In this document: piece after piece, positions 14,086-52,363 of the stretch
How the letters are laid out: each line of letters opens with the position of its first letter
Numbering within the stretch: position 1 is the stretch's first letter
From: Armatimonadota bacterium
Lineage (GTDB): Bacteria > Armatimonadota > Fimbriimonadia > Fimbriimonadales > Fimbriimonadaceae
DNA: 64,000 nt
Assembly: GCA_018268395.1 (NCBI GenBank)
Contig: JAFDWQ010000009.1
Span: 310,001 to 374,000, forward strand
Direction of reading: 5' to 3'
Position numbers and translations under genes: made by a program
Notes under the pieces: model-generated
The model's database searches: none
What the model saw: only the letters and a program-made list of their open reading frames with translations
What the model was told of the DNA's origin: nothing

Positions 14086-14595
14086 ATGAGGACACTGATC
14101 GCTCTGGCGGCTTTGAGCGCCGCTTCATTCGCATCGGCTCAGACGATTTCGACGCCGACGAACCTTGCGCTGCGCCTTGGCGCCGCGTATCCGATTGACA
14201 ACACCACGCGCGACAACATCCGCAGCTTTATCGGCGTGGGCTTCGACTATTTCTTCCAGAACAGCCTGTTGCCGGGCGGTGAGACGTACATTTCGGGCGA
14301 CTGGCTCGGCAAGACGTCCAGCGGCGACAAGGGCAACATTTTCCCCTTCATGATCAACCAGCGTTGGTACAACAAGGGTGCGGAGCTGGACTATGGTCGG
14401 AAGTCGTACTTCTTCTTGGGCGCTGGCTTGGCCGTCGTCGACGTCACGTCGACGAAGACCGTCCTCGCGGGCCGCGCAGGCTATGGCATGGAGTTCGGCG
14501 AGCACATTTTCGGCGAACTCACCTTCGTGATCAGTGACGACGCGCACGGTGCGCGCGCCAACTCGATCGGTGGCTATATCGGCTACCGCTTCTAA
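14086..14595 (+). CDS. Small outer-membrane beta-barrel-like protein
   Basis: This 169-aa exported protein has a clear signal peptide (MRTLIALAALSAASFASAQ). The mature part has alternating short hydrophobic and aromatic strands (RSFIGVGFDYFFQN, KSYFFLGAGLAVVDV, HIFGELTFVISD) and ends IGGYIGYRF. A terminal Phe after alternating hydrophobics is the usual signal for insertion by the BAM complex. The size fits an eight-stranded barrel of the OmpA/OmpW type, but I cannot assign a family. The ATG at 14086 has GGAGGAG about 5 bp upstream. A strong terminator follows the stop. The strong ribosome site and terminator suggest high expression. Confidence 0.8.
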   Translation: MRTLIALAALSAASFASAQTISTPTNLALRLGAAYPIDNTTRDNIRSFIGVGFDYFFQNSLLPGGETYISGDWLGKTSSGDKGNIFPFMINQRWYNKGAELDYGRKSYFFLGAGLAVVDVTSTKTVLAGRAGYGMEFGEHIFGELTFVISDDAHGARANSIGGYIGYRF

Positions 14596-14647: not shown

Positions 14648-15400
14648 TTACTCTTTTCGTTTGACAGCTTCGATGACGTCGTCAGCGGCCGCTCCGAGTT
14701 CCGAACCGGAAATCTCACGCACGCCTTGACGGTCGAGCACGAACGCCGACGGCAAGATTTTCCGAAAGCCTCCGGTCGCCGAATCCAAGTCGGCGGCTAT
14801 GTCCAACATGGTCAGGCCTTCCTTCAAAACATCGCCGAACGGCCGATTCGCCCATGGCCCTTTCGTCCGGATCAGATACTCGAAGACACCCCGGATCCTC
14901 TCCGACCCTGATCCGGCACACGCATAGTCCGAGCTCTGGAACCTTGCGCCCGCCGCGTCGAAGAAGTAGACGCCGAACGAGTCCGTCGACTTGTCGTAGG
15001 CGGCCGCGATCGGCAAGAACAGGCCGAGCCCCTCATTGACGGCAGGCAGGTTTCCGCGTAAGGCCCGGCTGATCTCCATCAGCTTGCCCTCGGACGAGAT
15101 CTCGACCAGGTTCAGCCTCTCGTAATACTTGAACGAGTGCCTGAGGTACCGCCCGATCTCGATCGAACGGGCATAGGCGCCGCTGATGGCGACGACGACC
15201 GTATCGTCGAGCGGGAGGATCTTCTCCGCATGTTCGTACATGATGAGGTTCCCCATCGTCGCACGCCTGTCGGCCAGCACGAGGATGCCCTCGTCATACC
15301 GGAGGGCGAGAACGGTCGTCCCGTGAACCTGGAAATCCTGGACAGGGGCCGCCTCGAATCCGACGAGTTCGGCGAAGCCCCCTTGGCCGCCTCGAGTCAT
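14648..15400 (-). CDS. prcB: 20S proteasome beta subunit
   Basis: This 250-aa protein is the proteolytic subunit of a bacterial 20S proteasome (Ntn hydrolase). A ~27-residue propeptide ends in His-Gly, and the mature protein would begin at Thr28 (TTVLALRYDEGILVLADRRA). Counting from Thr28 as Thr1, Asp17 and Lys33 are both in place, so the catalytic triad is complete. The start overlaps the UBact stop by 4 bp, so the genes are translationally coupled. In the cell it should hydrolyse unfolded tagged proteins delivered by the Mpa/ARC ATPase, whose candidate gene is at 50708-52363. No alpha subunit (prcA) is next to it, which is unusual because prcB and prcA are normally adjacent. Confidence 0.92.
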   Translation of the reverse strand: MTRGGQGGFAELVGFEAAPVQDFQVHGTTVLALRYDEGILVLADRRATMGNLIMYEHAEKILPLDDTVVVAISGAYARSIEIGRYLRHSFKYYERLNLVEISSEGKLMEISRALRGNLPAVNEGLGLFLPIAAAYDKSTDSFGVYFFDAAGARFQSSDYACAGSGSERIRGVFEYLIRTKGPWANRPFGDVLKEGLTMLDIAADLDSATGGFRKILPSAFVLDRQGVREISGSELGAAADDVIEAVKRKE

Positions 15401-15582
15401 TGACCGGATCTCTGCCTGTACTTCTTCGCTTGGTTCGGATCGATGTTCTTCATCCTTTTCAGCAGTTCGCTCGGCACTTTGGGCCGGTCGATCCCGGGCT
15501 TCGAGGGCCCGTCGTCGTCGACCGATTTGCGTTCGGGCTCCGTGAGTTCTCGCCGTTGGATCCGTTCAGTATTGACCGTCAT
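15397..15582 (-). CDS. Pup-like protein modifier (UBact type)
   Basis: This 61-aa hydrophilic, probably disordered protein is rich in Glu, Lys, Arg and Asp and ends AKKYRQRSGQ. The small size, disorder, terminal Gly-Gln and position between dop and a proteasome gene mark it as the Pup equivalent described in Gram-negative bacteria as UBact. A C-terminal Gln must be deamidated to Glu by Dop before a PafA-type ligase can attach it to target lysines. It overlaps dop by 4 bp at its start and prcB by 4 bp at its end (ATGA at both), so all three are co-translated. The internal Lys residues differ from actinobacterial Pup in position. The assignment rests on the C terminus and context. Confidence 0.88.
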   Translation of the reverse strand: MTVNTERIQRRELTEPERKSVDDDGPSKPGIDRPKVPSELLKRMKNIDPNQAKKYRQRSGQ

Positions 15583-17066
15583 CGTCGTTCCTCGAGGGCG
15601 TCCAAGAATTCGTCGAGCGAGTCTACGGACTCCAACGACTCAGGATAGCACCCGTCCGGTGCCAACGCGGCGGTCCGGACGCCCGCTTCTGTTTCAAACG
15701 TCAACCGCCCCCAGGACGCTCCCTTGAGCGATGAAGAAAAGGACCGCACGGCCTTGCCTCTTGCCCGGGCCCGGGTGCTCTCATGGCACCTTTCGAGCCG
15801 GGACGCCTTGATCTCTTGGGACACGGCCGGCTCCACCATTCCCAGTCCCGCCATGACGGCGTACAGACCGTCCACCGGGTCGACGTCGTGATAGGCTAGG
15901 TCGGTCGACCGTGCCACGGGGTCGCTCCAATCGGAATCCGACTCCTCCAGATAGGCTCCGATAGCCCGACCTTTCGCCGCCCAGTCGACCGTACGGGCGA
16001 AGTCCTCTGGTGCAGAACGGACCAGGTCTGCCGTTCCGCAGCACTCTCTTCCTTCTTGGAGGGCCTCTTCGACACCCGGGAACGACGGGTCCAAGAACCT
16101 TTCGGCGGCCTCGACGTACGATGCGATGACGGATGCGGCCGTCGTCCAGTTGCCTCCTTCGAGGGCGATCCGTCCTTCTCCCGTCAGATCGCGGCTCACG
16201 GCCTGGAACGATCCCACCGGGTCGCTCAGCCGCCAAACCGGGGCCCGCTCCACGGACTCGAGCCAGAGAGCGAGCTTGACCAGGCCGACTTTTCGGCGGA
16301 CGGCCGTGCCGATACGGTTGGCGTCTCCGCAGATGACGTGAAGCCGCATCCAACGTTCCGGATCGGCGTGAGGTTCGTCCCGGGTGTTGAAAACGGGCCG
16401 TCGGTACAGCGTGTCGACGCTCCAGACTTCGGTGAAAAAATCGGCCCGTTGCGACATCTGATAATCGCAATGGACCCCTGATTCGGAACCGACCTTCCCG
16501 GCTCCGCACAAGAGTTGCCTCGCGATGAGGACGGGAAGGACGGCGCTGCTCGTTCGGGCGAACCCGAGGTACCGCGGCACCAAGTAGTTCTCGTGGGTGC
16601 CGTACGACGCGCCGTGCCCGTCCGTGTTGTTCTTGTACAACGTGACGGCCAGACCGTGGTCCCGGGAGAATCCGGCCGCTGCGTCAAGGACGGCGCTTTC
16701 ACCCGCCGCGTCCTGACGTTCCAGTTCCAGAAGGCTCCAGCACTCGGGGGTCGAGTACTCCGGGTGGCCGTGATCGTTGTACAGCCGCGCACCGTTCGGA
16801 AGGACCACGTCGGACCGCACGTCTTCGTCCATCGTCGGGCGACGGCCCACGTCGAACTTCGCGTCCTCAGGGTCGACGGCCAGAGCCTGCTGGACGAAGC
16901 CTCTCAGGTCGGCCCTTGGGGATTCGGAACGGTAGTCCCAAACGGAACGACGCCCGTACGGAGAACTCCGTACGAGCGCCATCGCATCGTCGACCTGATC
17001 GCCCGCTCCCCGGCCCTCGACCGCCAGACCGTACTCGGTCTCCAGTCCGACCAGGATCGGCCACAT
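15579..17066 (-). CDS. dop: Pup deamidase/depupylase
   Basis: This 495-aa enzyme of the carboxylate-amine ligase fold is more like Dop than PafA. Dop-type motifs are GLETEYGL (residues 7-14), VWDYRSESPRADLRGF (about 42-57, matching the Dop-loop region), and GARLYNDHGHPEYSTPEC with the likely catalytic Asp98. LYKNNTDGHGASYGTHENYL and FNTRDEPHAD follow. Dop converts the C-terminal Gln of Pup to Glu and removes Pup from substrates. This fits the Gln-terminated modifier gene that overlaps its 3' end. I chose the ATG at 17066 because the conserved N terminus starts there and it follows the upstream lipoprotein stop in TAGGATG, which suggests coupling. No separate pafA ligase is in the window. Confidence 0.92.
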   Translation of the reverse strand: MWPILVGLETEYGLAVEGRGAGDQVDDAMALVRSSPYGRRSVWDYRSESPRADLRGFVQQALAVDPEDAKFDVGRRPTMDEDVRSDVVLPNGARLYNDHGHPEYSTPECWSLLELERQDAAGESAVLDAAAGFSRDHGLAVTLYKNNTDGHGASYGTHENYLVPRYLGFARTSSAVLPVLIARQLLCGAGKVGSESGVHCDYQMSQRADFFTEVWSVDTLYRRPVFNTRDEPHADPERWMRLHVICGDANRIGTAVRRKVGLVKLALWLESVERAPVWRLSDPVGSFQAVSRDLTGEGRIALEGGNWTTAASVIASYVEAAERFLDPSFPGVEEALQEGRECCGTADLVRSAPEDFARTVDWAAKGRAIGAYLEESDSDWSDPVARSTDLAYHDVDPVDGLYAVMAGLGMVEPAVSQEIKASRLERCHESTRARARGKAVRSFSSSLKGASWGRLTFETEAGVRTAALAPDGCYPESLESVDSLDEFLDALEERR

Positions 17067-17067
17067 C

Positions 17068-18375
17068 CTATCGGAAGACGACGAATCCGCCGGTCCTCGG
17101 GAACGGGAACGTCGCGTTGCCGACGACGTTCGAGACCGAGAAGGTGCCCGACCGCACGACGCCGCTTGACTTCGTATAGAAGACCTCGCCCGTGGCCCGA
17201 GGCTGGGCACCGGCGTCCGGAAGCTGCTCAAGGGAGTAGAGCCTCAGGACGCCCTTCGTCCCGCCCGTAAAGTCGGCCACACCCTGCCAGCACGCGGTGA
17301 TCGTCCCGTTCGAGTTGCGGTTGAACATTACGAACTGGTGCGAGGTCGTCGAACGGGTCGACGGGATCGCGACGGCGCCGAACTCACTCAGGTTGGAGAG
17401 CACTTCGGTGTAGGCCCGGTAGAACCCCTGGATGGCGTTGATCTTTTCCGTACCGAACGGATCGCGGGGATCCGGCTCCATGACGGTGAAGATGCCCGGA
17501 GCCTTGTTCGCGCCAAGCGTCACGGGCTTGGTCATGATGCCCGAGTCGATGACGATCGGGCTGAGATTGTCGTAGGCGGCTTCCTCGCGGCCGCTGACCG
17601 TGAAGAAGTGGCCCGAAATCCCGATGAGGTCGCCTGAGAAGTGGACCATTTCGGCACGCTCGCCGTTCTGGAGCAACGGTCGCTGAGCCGCCGGCAGGCT
17701 GGACACGTCGAACGCGATCATGTCGCTCAGGAAGCCGGTCAAAGCCCCGGTGACCTGAGAGTAGTTCTCAGCTTTGAACTGGGCGGCGTCGAAAGCAATG
17801 CCGTTGGTCGCGTCCCACGTGAGCATGGCGTCGTTCAACAGCACCTGCACCGACGTCTGCCGTCCCGGGAAGAGCTGCATATTGAGCTTGAAGAAGTTGT
17901 TCGCCGAATCGCCCGCGACCAAGAACGGGGGCCCGGAGTAGACCGTCACGGGTTGACCGCCCTGCTCTTCGTCCATCTGGGCGATCTCGAGCGGGAACTG
18001 CGTGTAGGTCTTGCTCGCGGAACCGACCGACATCGGAACGTCGAAGACAAAGTGGTTCAGGGTGTAGCCGTCCAACTGGACACGGATCGCCGATCCCGAT
18101 CCTTGCAGGTCCTTGGGCCAGTAGTCCGTCGGCGAGTTGAAGATGCGGATGTTGTTCATGACCGCGATCTGCGAACCCGGAGCGCGCCGGCCCTGTCCGG
18201 ACAGGTACAGGATCTGGACTTGGGCGTTCGGCTTCAAGTTGACGGTCGGGATGGTCCGATCGGTACCGCCGCCGCCACCACCGTTGTTGCCGTTATTTAT
18301 GCCGTCCAGGCCGCTTCCGCCGCCACAACCGATGACCACGGCACCAGCCGTAAATGCGATCAACCACTTCTTCAA
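17068..18375 (-). CDS. Lipoprotein of unknown function heading the dop operon
   Basis: From a TTG at 18375 this is a 435-aa lipoprotein: MKKWLIAFTAGAVVIGCGGG, with the lipobox VIGC and then a Gly/Asn linker. GAGGT is about 7 bp upstream of the TTG. The mature part is predicted to be beta-rich, with no enzymatic motif that I recognise; PRTGGFVVFR is the C terminus. An ATG-led longer frame to 18423 would place a charged stretch before the signal. Its stop is 1 bp from the dop start (TAGGATG), so it is probably the first gene of the lipoprotein-dop-UBact-prcB operon. A link to cytoplasmic pupylation is not obvious, and it may simply share a promoter. Confidence 0.75.
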   Translation of the reverse strand: MKKWLIAFTAGAVVIGCGGGSGLDGINNGNNGGGGGGTDRTIPTVNLKPNAQVQILYLSGQGRRAPGSQIAVMNNIRIFNSPTDYWPKDLQGSGSAIRVQLDGYTLNHFVFDVPMSVGSASKTYTQFPLEIAQMDEEQGGQPVTVYSGPPFLVAGDSANNFFKLNMQLFPGRQTSVQVLLNDAMLTWDATNGIAFDAAQFKAENYSQVTGALTGFLSDMIAFDVSSLPAAQRPLLQNGERAEMVHFSGDLIGISGHFFTVSGREEAAYDNLSPIVIDSGIMTKPVTLGANKAPGIFTVMEPDPRDPFGTEKINAIQGFYRAYTEVLSNLSEFGAVAIPSTRSTTSHQFVMFNRNSNGTITACWQGVADFTGGTKGVLRLYSLEQLPDAGAQPRATGEVFYTKSSGVVRSGTFSVSNVVGNATFPFPRTGGFVVFR

Positions 18376-18500
18376 GGTAGCTACCTCGTCGCCGGGCCGT
18401 GAACGGCCAAGCTCGAACGCCACCAGGATAGCAGTCCGGGCGGGGGAAAATCAAGCTGGCCGGCCTCGTCCGGGCCACTTCCACAGAGGTAGACGGACTG

Positions 18501-50707: not shown

Positions 50708-52363
50708 TCAGACGACGGTCTTGCGGACGAACGTGTCACCGGATTCCGTGCGGACGGTCTTCACGTTGACGACGGTCTCCGGTTCGAAGTCGAGCAGTTT
50801 GAGCCAATCTTCGACCGCGTCCGACTTCGGGAAAATCTCGTTCTCCCGGTATTCAGCGGCCACGGCTTCGTGCAGGTCCTCTTCTCGGAGACCGGTCTGG
50901 TCGTCCGCACCCTCGGCGGAAACCGCCCTTCGGATCGCGGCGTCTTTAGCCCGGTCGACGATGGACTTTAACAGGGCTCCGCTGACCATGTCACGCCAAT
51001 GGAGCGTCTTCGTCGTCCCGTTCCTCATTTGAACGCGCATGAACTCGGTGTCTCTGTCCGAACGCCATAGGAAAGCAAGGGTCGACTCGATCAGGGCCAG
51101 ACGGGCGCATTCCGGTTCGACGTGCTCTTTGACGAGTGCAGGTTCGAGGGGGAGCCTGTCGTGCAGGTAGATGCCCAGGATGTCGCGCGACGCCTCTTTG
51201 TCGGGCCGATTGACCTTCACCTTACGGTCGATCCTCTCAGGCCTCAGGATCGCCGGGTCGATGTAGTCCGGGCGGTTCGACGTCAGGATCAAGACGACGT
51301 TGTCGGCCCCGACCATGCCGTCCATCTCGGCGCAGAACTGTGGCACGACGGTGTTGCTGATGTTCAGCCACCGGCCGCTGGACCGCGTGCGCAGGATCGA
51401 TTCCGCCTCGTCGATGAAGAGCACGACGAGCCGGCCGTCTTTCGCCTGCTCACGGGCTGACGCAAAGATCTCGCGGACCATCCGTTCTGTCTCGCCCAGC
51501 CACATGTTGAGGACTTTAGGGCCGCTGATATGGAGGAAACACTCCTTGACCTCTTGTCCCGACCGTTCGGAGTACTCCTTGGCCAAGTTGTGGGCGACGG
51601 CCTTCCCGAGCAACGTCTTGCCGCAACCCGGAGGCCCGTAGAGAAGGATGCCTTTGATCGGCTTCTTGTCGAACTTCCTGTACAGGTCGGGATAGAGCAA
51701 CGGATGTTCGATCGTTTCGCGGATCAGCGCGATGGCTTCGTCCTGCCCGCCGACTTGGTCCCACGCGATCGGAGGCACCTCCTCCATGAAGTACTCGCGG
51801 GTCTCTTGGTGGGCGAAATGCTCGACGGCGACGCGACCCGAACTGTCGGTCCGGACCTCGTCGCCTGGCTTGATCTTCGCTTCCTTCAGGCCTTCGCTGC
51901 GGAACAGCAGCCGCCCTTGCTGGTTTTGAGGATCGGTTCCGACCCGGATGCGACCGTCGTCCAAGGCCTCGGCGACCTTCGTGACATGGCCCGTCTCGCC
52001 AGCGGGCAGGACTCCCGTCACGGCATAGGCGTCGTTCAGGCGCACCCGCACCCCGGTCTGGAGTTCTCTGCGGTCGATCTTAGGATCGACGTTGGCGACG
52101 TACTCGGTGTCTCCCAAGACGACGAGCGCGAAGGCGTCGTCGACGGTCTTCAGGAACACGCCGATCTTGTTGGCGGGCGCCGTCAACTTTTCGTAGGCCT
52201 CTTCAAAAGCTTTTAGGGCTTCTTCTGCTTCCGCATGAGCGTGGGCGTCGGTCTCTAAGGTGCGACGAAGCTCGGCTAAGTAGGCATGGGCCTTCGCCTC
52301 CTCCTTGGGAACTGATGTTTCCAGGCGTCCGAGAAGTTCAAGGGCCGCCGATGCTGGAGTCAT
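50708..52363 (-). CDS. mpa: Proteasome-associated AAA+ ATPase (Mpa/ARC)
   Basis: This 551-aa hexameric unfoldase recognises pupylated substrates and feeds them to the 20S proteasome. Residues 1 to about 65 are a predicted coiled coil that in Mpa binds Pup. An interdomain OB-like region (about 70-195) follows, then the AAA domain with Walker A GPPGCGKT (243-250) and Walker B LFIDEAES (about 315-322), and SNRPDYIDPAILRPERIDRK as sensor/arginine-finger region. The protein ends TFVRKTVV rather than the Gly-Gln-Tyr-Leu tail that docks actinobacterial Mpa into the proteasome. The gene is ~33 kb from prcB, UBact and dop. The shared system is inferred from family and coiled coil, not proximity. Confidence 0.9.
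   Translation of the reverse strand: MTPASAALELLGRLETSVPKEEAKAHAYLAELRRTLETDAHAHAEAEEALKAFEEAYEKLTAPANKIGVFLKTVDDAFALVVLGDTEYVANVDPKIDRRELQTGVRVRLNDAYAVTGVLPAGETGHVTKVAEALDDGRIRVGTDPQNQQGRLLFRSEGLKEAKIKPGDEVRTDSSGRVAVEHFAHQETREYFMEEVPPIAWDQVGGQDEAIALIRETIEHPLLYPDLYRKFDKKPIKGILLYGPPGCGKTLLGKAVAHNLAKEYSERSGQEVKECFLHISGPKVLNMWLGETERMVREIFASAREQAKDGRLVVLFIDEAESILRTRSSGRWLNISNTVVPQFCAEMDGMVGADNVVLILTSNRPDYIDPAILRPERIDRKVKVNRPDKEASRDILGIYLHDRLPLEPALVKEHVEPECARLALIESTLAFLWRSDRDTEFMRVQMRNGTTKTLHWRDMVSGALLKSIVDRAKDAAIRRAVSAEGADDQTGLREEDLHEAVAAEYRENEIFPKSDAVEDWLKLLDFEPETVVNVKTVRTESGDTFVRKTVV

Follow-up and report, generated by a model that had tools for sequence, protein, structure and literature searches.

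The dop, UBact and prcB genes of this Fimbriimonadales bacterium (Armatimonadota) very probably form the core of a UBact-proteasome pathway, one that is complete when judged by the Pup system. All six components (dop, UBact, prcB, prcA, pafA and mpa) are encoded in the genome searched (3.72 Mb in 15 contigs, 99.8% complete), with their catalytic residues and domain features intact, and prcA, pafA and mpa lie outside the three-gene operon. In the window, that is, the whole stretch of 64,000 nucleotides that was analysed, the operon is on the minus strand and consists of dop (15579..17066), with an ATG start and a product of 495 amino acids that is by family a UBact deamidase/deconjugase; UBact (15397..15582), encoding a protein modifier of 61 amino acids with the C-terminus ...KKYRQRSGQ; and prcB (14648..15400), encoding a 20S proteasome beta subunit of 250 amino acids. 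The three genes had been predicted to overlap by ATGA at both junctions, and this proved exact in the coordinates and in the junctions read directly, which are CGACGATGACGG for dop/UBact and GTCAATGACTCG for UBact/prcB. Since each ATGA recurs in more than half of the relatives (dop/UBact in 57 and UBact/prcB in 53 of about 95 loci of the class Fimbriimonadia) and the order dop-UBact-prcB is kept in the great majority of the class neighbourhoods compared, neither the overlaps nor the gene order can be ascribed to chance. The two overlaps would couple the translation of an enzyme, a tag and a protease subunit.

The assignment of the 61-residue protein (MTVNTERIQRRELTEPERKSVDDDGPSKPGIDRPKVPSELLKRMKNIDPNQAKKYRQRSGQ, ending RQRSGQ) to UBact, as originally predicted, is borne out by scores far above the curated cut-offs of both family models, PF20513 (E value 4e-20, 71.7 bits, cut-off 27.8) and NF033388 (66.2 bits, cut-off 35). 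It matches these two models only; the Pup family model gives no match to it, and its C-terminus is RSGQ, not GGE or GGQ. This end has the form R-[ST]-G-[EQ], and among the relatives found the C-terminus YRQ-R-[ST]-G-[QE] is invariant save for the last residue and the Ser/Thr position. The genome-wide family search returned one UBact above cut-off. The dop product matches Pup_ligase (PF03136), a family with a glutamine-synthetase-like fold, with an E value of 1.5e-122 (410 bits) and scores higher with the Dop model TIGR03688 (330 bits) than with the PafA model TIGR03686 (271 bits). The former value is below the NCBIfam equivalog cut-off of 492.3 bits, and every Dop of the UBact type is remote from the actinobacterial seed of TIGR03688; in total four pathway proteins fall under their NCBIfam equivalog cut-offs, for which Actinobacteria had served as the basis. 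The solved structures nearest to the dop product are those of Dop from Acidothermus and M. tuberculosis, with 4b0r and 5lrt as the best matches; its catalytic Asp is Asp98, aligned to Asp94 of Acidothermus Dop (4b0r), and it clusters with Dop sequences in trees. Moreover, it carries the Dop loop, WDYRSESPRADLRG, with the motif WDY...E.P..D.RG, which is absent from pafA and has been studied as WDYEV in M. tuberculosis (PMC9556782).

The prcB product matches the proteasome family PF00227 (E value 1e-20), TIGR03690 with 124 bits (cut-off 191.9) and, in the PDB, PrcB 2jay. A propeptide of 27 residues is followed by TTVLAL, and the mature subunit has Thr1, Asp17 and Lys33 together with the equivalents of Ser129, Asp166 and Thr169. 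The full Thr1-Asp17-Lys33 triad noted originally is thus present, and all these active-site residues are invariant in 216 related sequences. The original prediction had left prcA and pafA to be sought in the genome, and both were found, each on another contig. The gene prcA (contig C1, 806440-807120) encodes a very divergent alpha subunit, with 24 bits only to PF00227, 75 bits to TIGR03691 (20S_bact_alpha) and PDB matches to M. tuberculosis PrcA; HslV was considered for this PF00227 match and ruled out, as the protein scores as 20S_bact_alpha and is without the N-terminal Thr. The gene pafA (contig C10, 142055-143506) is the second PF03136 gene (407 bits, no Dop loop) and scores higher with TIGR03686 (287.6 bits) than with TIGR03688 (269.7 bits), both below cut-off. 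It groups with the PafA proteins of complete UBact clusters on one side of a branch with a support of 100/100. A genome with no ligase anywhere would speak against the pathway, and this case is excluded by pafA.

A first Dop/PafA tree left out the Pup-type PafA and was insufficient for the question of where the ligase came from. When 46 sequences of Dop and PafA were placed in one tree, those of the Pup type, Dop and PafA alike, fell together (97/98), apart from the UBact PafA, which is not as predicted by a single old Dop/PafA duplication. This topology would fit separate origins of the UBact and the Pup ligase, both of which may descend independently from Dop-like enzymes that carried the loop. 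Forcing one PafA clade costs 26.6 log-likelihood units in the 46-sequence tree, but the AU test does not reject it (p 0.06 with 46 sequences, p 0.11 with 69 sequences). Thus the independent origin, favoured by the tree and not significant in the AU test, counts here as no more than a hint. A published tree of Actinobacteria and Nitrospirae, in which UBact ligases were not set apart, has two clean clusters and one duplication (PMC7947786).

Within the class Fimbriimonadia, the system is close to universal: among 113 genomes, UBact was found in 100, Pup_ligase in 109 (mostly in two copies), mpa in 104 and prcA in 97. Two genomes of the same family (G067 and G068; 1.5 Mb, 97% complete) are without UBact, both ligase-family genes, mpa and the proteasome subunits, and have lost the whole system together. 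Outside the class, in other Armatimonadota, Poribacteria, Latescibacterota, Gemmatimonadota and Nitrospirota, the usual arrangement is one cluster, mpa-dop-UBact-prcB-prcA-pafA. In the class, families f3 and f4 have dop-UBact-prcB-prcA, with pafA adjoining in some, family f2 keeps dop-UBact, and family f1, to which the present genome belongs, keeps dop-UBact-prcB. From this distribution we infer that the ancestor had a larger, six-gene cluster, of which the three-gene operon is what remains. In Verrucomicrobiota, dop (with or without mpa) lies apart from UBact at four loci (L232, L239, L247 and L261). Verrucomicrobiota dop loci without an adjoining UBact were considered as tag-less systems and rejected, as UBact was found elsewhere in every genome.

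The three-gene operon predicted originally is therefore real but incomplete, being a remnant of the six-gene cluster and having a further gene coupled to it at the 5' side of dop. This gene (17068..18423, minus strand) encodes a predicted secreted, conserved lipoprotein with the lipobox AGAVVIGC and lies 1 nt upstream of dop. A homologue is found directly upstream of dop and on the same strand in 43 of the 69 class genomes with sequence there, at a median distance of about 2 nt. Searches of the lipoprotein against Pfam, NCBIfam and the PDB gave no match, and its single-sequence structure model (mean pLDDT 35.5) is worthless. The operon may begin with this gene, which, being conserved and coupled to dop, is a candidate for connecting tagging with the envelope. 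On the other side, beyond prcB, a convergent gene (14088-14595, plus strand) encodes a small predicted envelope protein with a signal peptide, and homologues of it are found in more than 30 of the class neighbourhoods fetched around dop-UBact-prcB.

By analogy with the Pup system, Dop would turn the Gln at the C-terminus of UBact into Glu by deamidation, PafA, encoded on the other contig, would phosphorylate this Glu and join the tag to lysines of the targets, and an Mpa/ARC hexamer would bind the tag, unfold the target and pass it to a 20S core built from PrcA and PrcB; Dop would also take the tag off again, which is probably its conserved role. The ATPase gene mpa/ARC is located in the same 64-kb window (50708..52363, minus strand) and encodes a proteasomal AAA ATPase of 551 amino acids with OB and AAA domains (PF17758, PF16450 and PF00004), which scores 460 bits with TIGR03689 over residues 38-537 (cut-off 504.75); an N-terminal coiled coil may be assigned to it by analogy. 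Its nearest solved relative is Mpa of M. tuberculosis (5kwa). M. tuberculosis Mpa docks on the 20S core via a C-terminal GQYL, and the proteasomal ATPases of eukaryotes and bacteria have been described as sharing a penultimate Tyr (PMC8755798; PMC12288473). The Mpa/ARC of the present genome ends in RKTVV, with neither GQYL nor a penultimate Tyr, and a tail without Tyr and with two hydrophobic end residues, rather than GQYL, would make its contact with the core.

Nearly all UBact-type ATPases have a tail of this kind, with two small hydrophobic residues, mostly Val or Ile, at the end. Among 96 distinct UBact-type ATPases, drawn from the Fimbriimonadia, other phyla and the Nitrospirota, Tyr at position -2 occurs in none and Val or Ile in 94, and the last residue is mostly Ile or Val, the exceptions being Thr, Ser, Met, Leu and Glu; two of the ATPase sequences (L055 and L328) look like broken or misread frames. 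The entropy is 1.1 and 1.4 at the final two positions versus about 3 bits in the preceding dozen, a pattern to be expected of a docking tail that is attached by a flexible linker. Two mpa genes are present in 65 of 96 positive genomes of Nitrospirota, and in 20 Nitrospirota ATPase pairs the actinobacterial type ends in GHY[LF] in 20/20 and the UBact type in 0/20, with UBact-type tails of VI or II in 16, AIE in three and KN in one; two actinobacterial reference ATPases end in GQYL. Furthermore, the pocket Lys of the alpha subunit that binds the carboxylate of the tail is present in all 149 sequences, and the residue two positions after it is Tyr or Phe in 130/130 UBact-type alpha subunits and Ser in 19/19 of the other type, likewise in M. 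tuberculosis. The UBact-type and the other alpha subunits and ATPases are two lineages, so that the association of tail and alpha residue is not a set of independent events. From strand alternation we infer that this residue faces the pocket. The Tyr-less tails together with the K-x-[YF] of the alpha subunit suggest a different docking code. We see an even chance that UBact proteasomes use a code of their own, in which a [VI]-[VI]-COOH tail would place its carboxylate on the pocket Lys with the alpha aromatic residue two positions on, and that this would keep the two proteasomes of Nitrospirota from exchanging ATPases. Contrary to the statement in reviews, a whole set of bacterial phyla is without the penultimate-Tyr tail, and in the Nitrospirota with both types it could be tested directly whether the tails keep the two proteasomes apart.

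The same tail bears on an alternative, namely that UBact tagging is mainly a reversible regulatory modification whose degradative branch is minor or lost. Such a role would be consistent with a Mpa/ARC that is without the known 20S-docking Tyr, with the arrangement in family f1, where dop, UBact and prcB have stayed side by side and mpa and prcA have relocated, and with the escape of some modified proteins from degradation in Actinobacteria (PMC12288473). However, the partner kept in the operon is prcB itself, with its active site intact, almost all genomes of the class still have mpa and prcA, and the pocket Lys of PrcA is invariant (149/149), which makes a mainly regulatory system improbable.

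Of the original prediction, the UBact system stands, with the ligase, prcA and Mpa/ARC all encoded in the genome, and what falls is the claim that the terminal Gln is the reason for dop. That deamidation of UBact-Gln is the main job of Dop, and hence the need for dop, would agree with the Gln at the end of UBact (15397-15582) and with the deamidation of Pup-Gln by M. tuberculosis Dop (PMC12288473). The class as a whole speaks against it. All 100 class UBacts have YRQRSG, which is followed by Gln in 67 and by Glu in 33; the last codons are CAA in 55, GAA in 21, CAG in 12 and GAG in 12, so that Gln and Glu are one base apart. On the Dop tree of 95 genomes, at least 20 changes between the two states are needed, and shuffling of the labels gave a mean of 25.9 changes, with 20 or fewer in 4 of 1000 shuffles; the terminal state is thus only weakly inherited. 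The tags of two genomes, one with Glu (G017) and the other with Gln (G024), are otherwise identical across the last 50 residues. Nevertheless dop is kept: at least two Pup_ligase genes are present in 30 of the 33 genomes with UBact-Glu, the core motif G[AG]R[LF]Y.DH.HPE is kept in 28 of 30 Dops from these genomes, and in the Poribacteria examined every UBact ends in Glu and dop is likewise retained. Because relatives encoding Glu retain dop, the Gln does not explain it, and deamidation as its main purpose is very unlikely. The same argument, that dop is not kept for the Gln, was made earlier for Actinobacteria with Pup-Glu (PMC12288473). Deamidation can be one of the jobs of Dop in the present genome, as in the Pup system, and its conserved role is more likely to take the tag off or to recycle it, as the Glu-encoding relatives retain dop. 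With its frequent swaps of Gln and Glu, also between near-identical tags, the class is a natural experiment on the purpose of Dop.

Decay or silencing of the operon, as a mere relic, might be read from the dispersal of the pathway genes and from a scan for promoters and terminators around the operon, which stayed at background level with no sigma-70-type match upstream and says little for Armatimonadota, but with all ORFs intact, invariant catalytic residues, near-universal presence in the class and joint loss in reduced genomes only, it is extremely improbable.

The system of the present genome is a further example of the UBact systems known since 2017. UBact systems of Gram-negative phyla were reportedly described in that year by Lehmann, Udasin, Livneh and Ciechanover, in BBRC 483:946 (doi 10.1016/j.bbrc.2017.01.037). 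PMC5751360 cites this 2017 UBact paper. The tag family, the enzymes, the proteasome and the neighbour order dop-UBact-prcB are the same as in the published UBact systems, whereas here prcA, pafA and mpa are elsewhere and a lipoprotein gene precedes dop. In the searchable literature, which leaves out the original 2017 UBact description, no mention was found of the tail without Tyr, of the lability between Gln and Glu or of the lipoprotein gene coupled to dop. Compared with the actinobacterial Pup-proteasome of M. tuberculosis (PMC12288473; PMC8755798), the present system is alike in a Dop with the WDY loop, a PafA without it, a GE/GQ C-terminus of the tag, the Thr1/Asp17/Lys33 of the 20S core and an Mpa-type ATPase with OB and AAA domains. 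It differs in that UBact is another tag family, the UBact-type Mpa tail is [VI][VI] instead of GQYL, and the alpha subunit has K-x-[YF] where the Pup type has K-x-S. In Nonomuraea gerenzanensis (L268, L356 and L357), no prcB or prcA was seen around dop on a record of 11.85 Mb, filed as a plasmid and chromosome-sized, which carries arc, dop, pup and two nearly identical pafA genes. Many Nitrospirota genomes (L316-L355) have two complete proteasome gene sets, one of the UBact type and one of the actinobacterial type. Their UBact clusters are the same system as the Armatimonadota operon; the second cluster in these dual genomes has an ATPase ending in GHYL, whereas the Armatimonadota genome has the UBact type only. 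In about half of the actinobacterial-type clusters of Nitrospirota (L339, L340, L342-L347 and L349-L351), the search for a Pup gene between dop and prcB found none, and in those examined the two genes follow each other almost without a gap.
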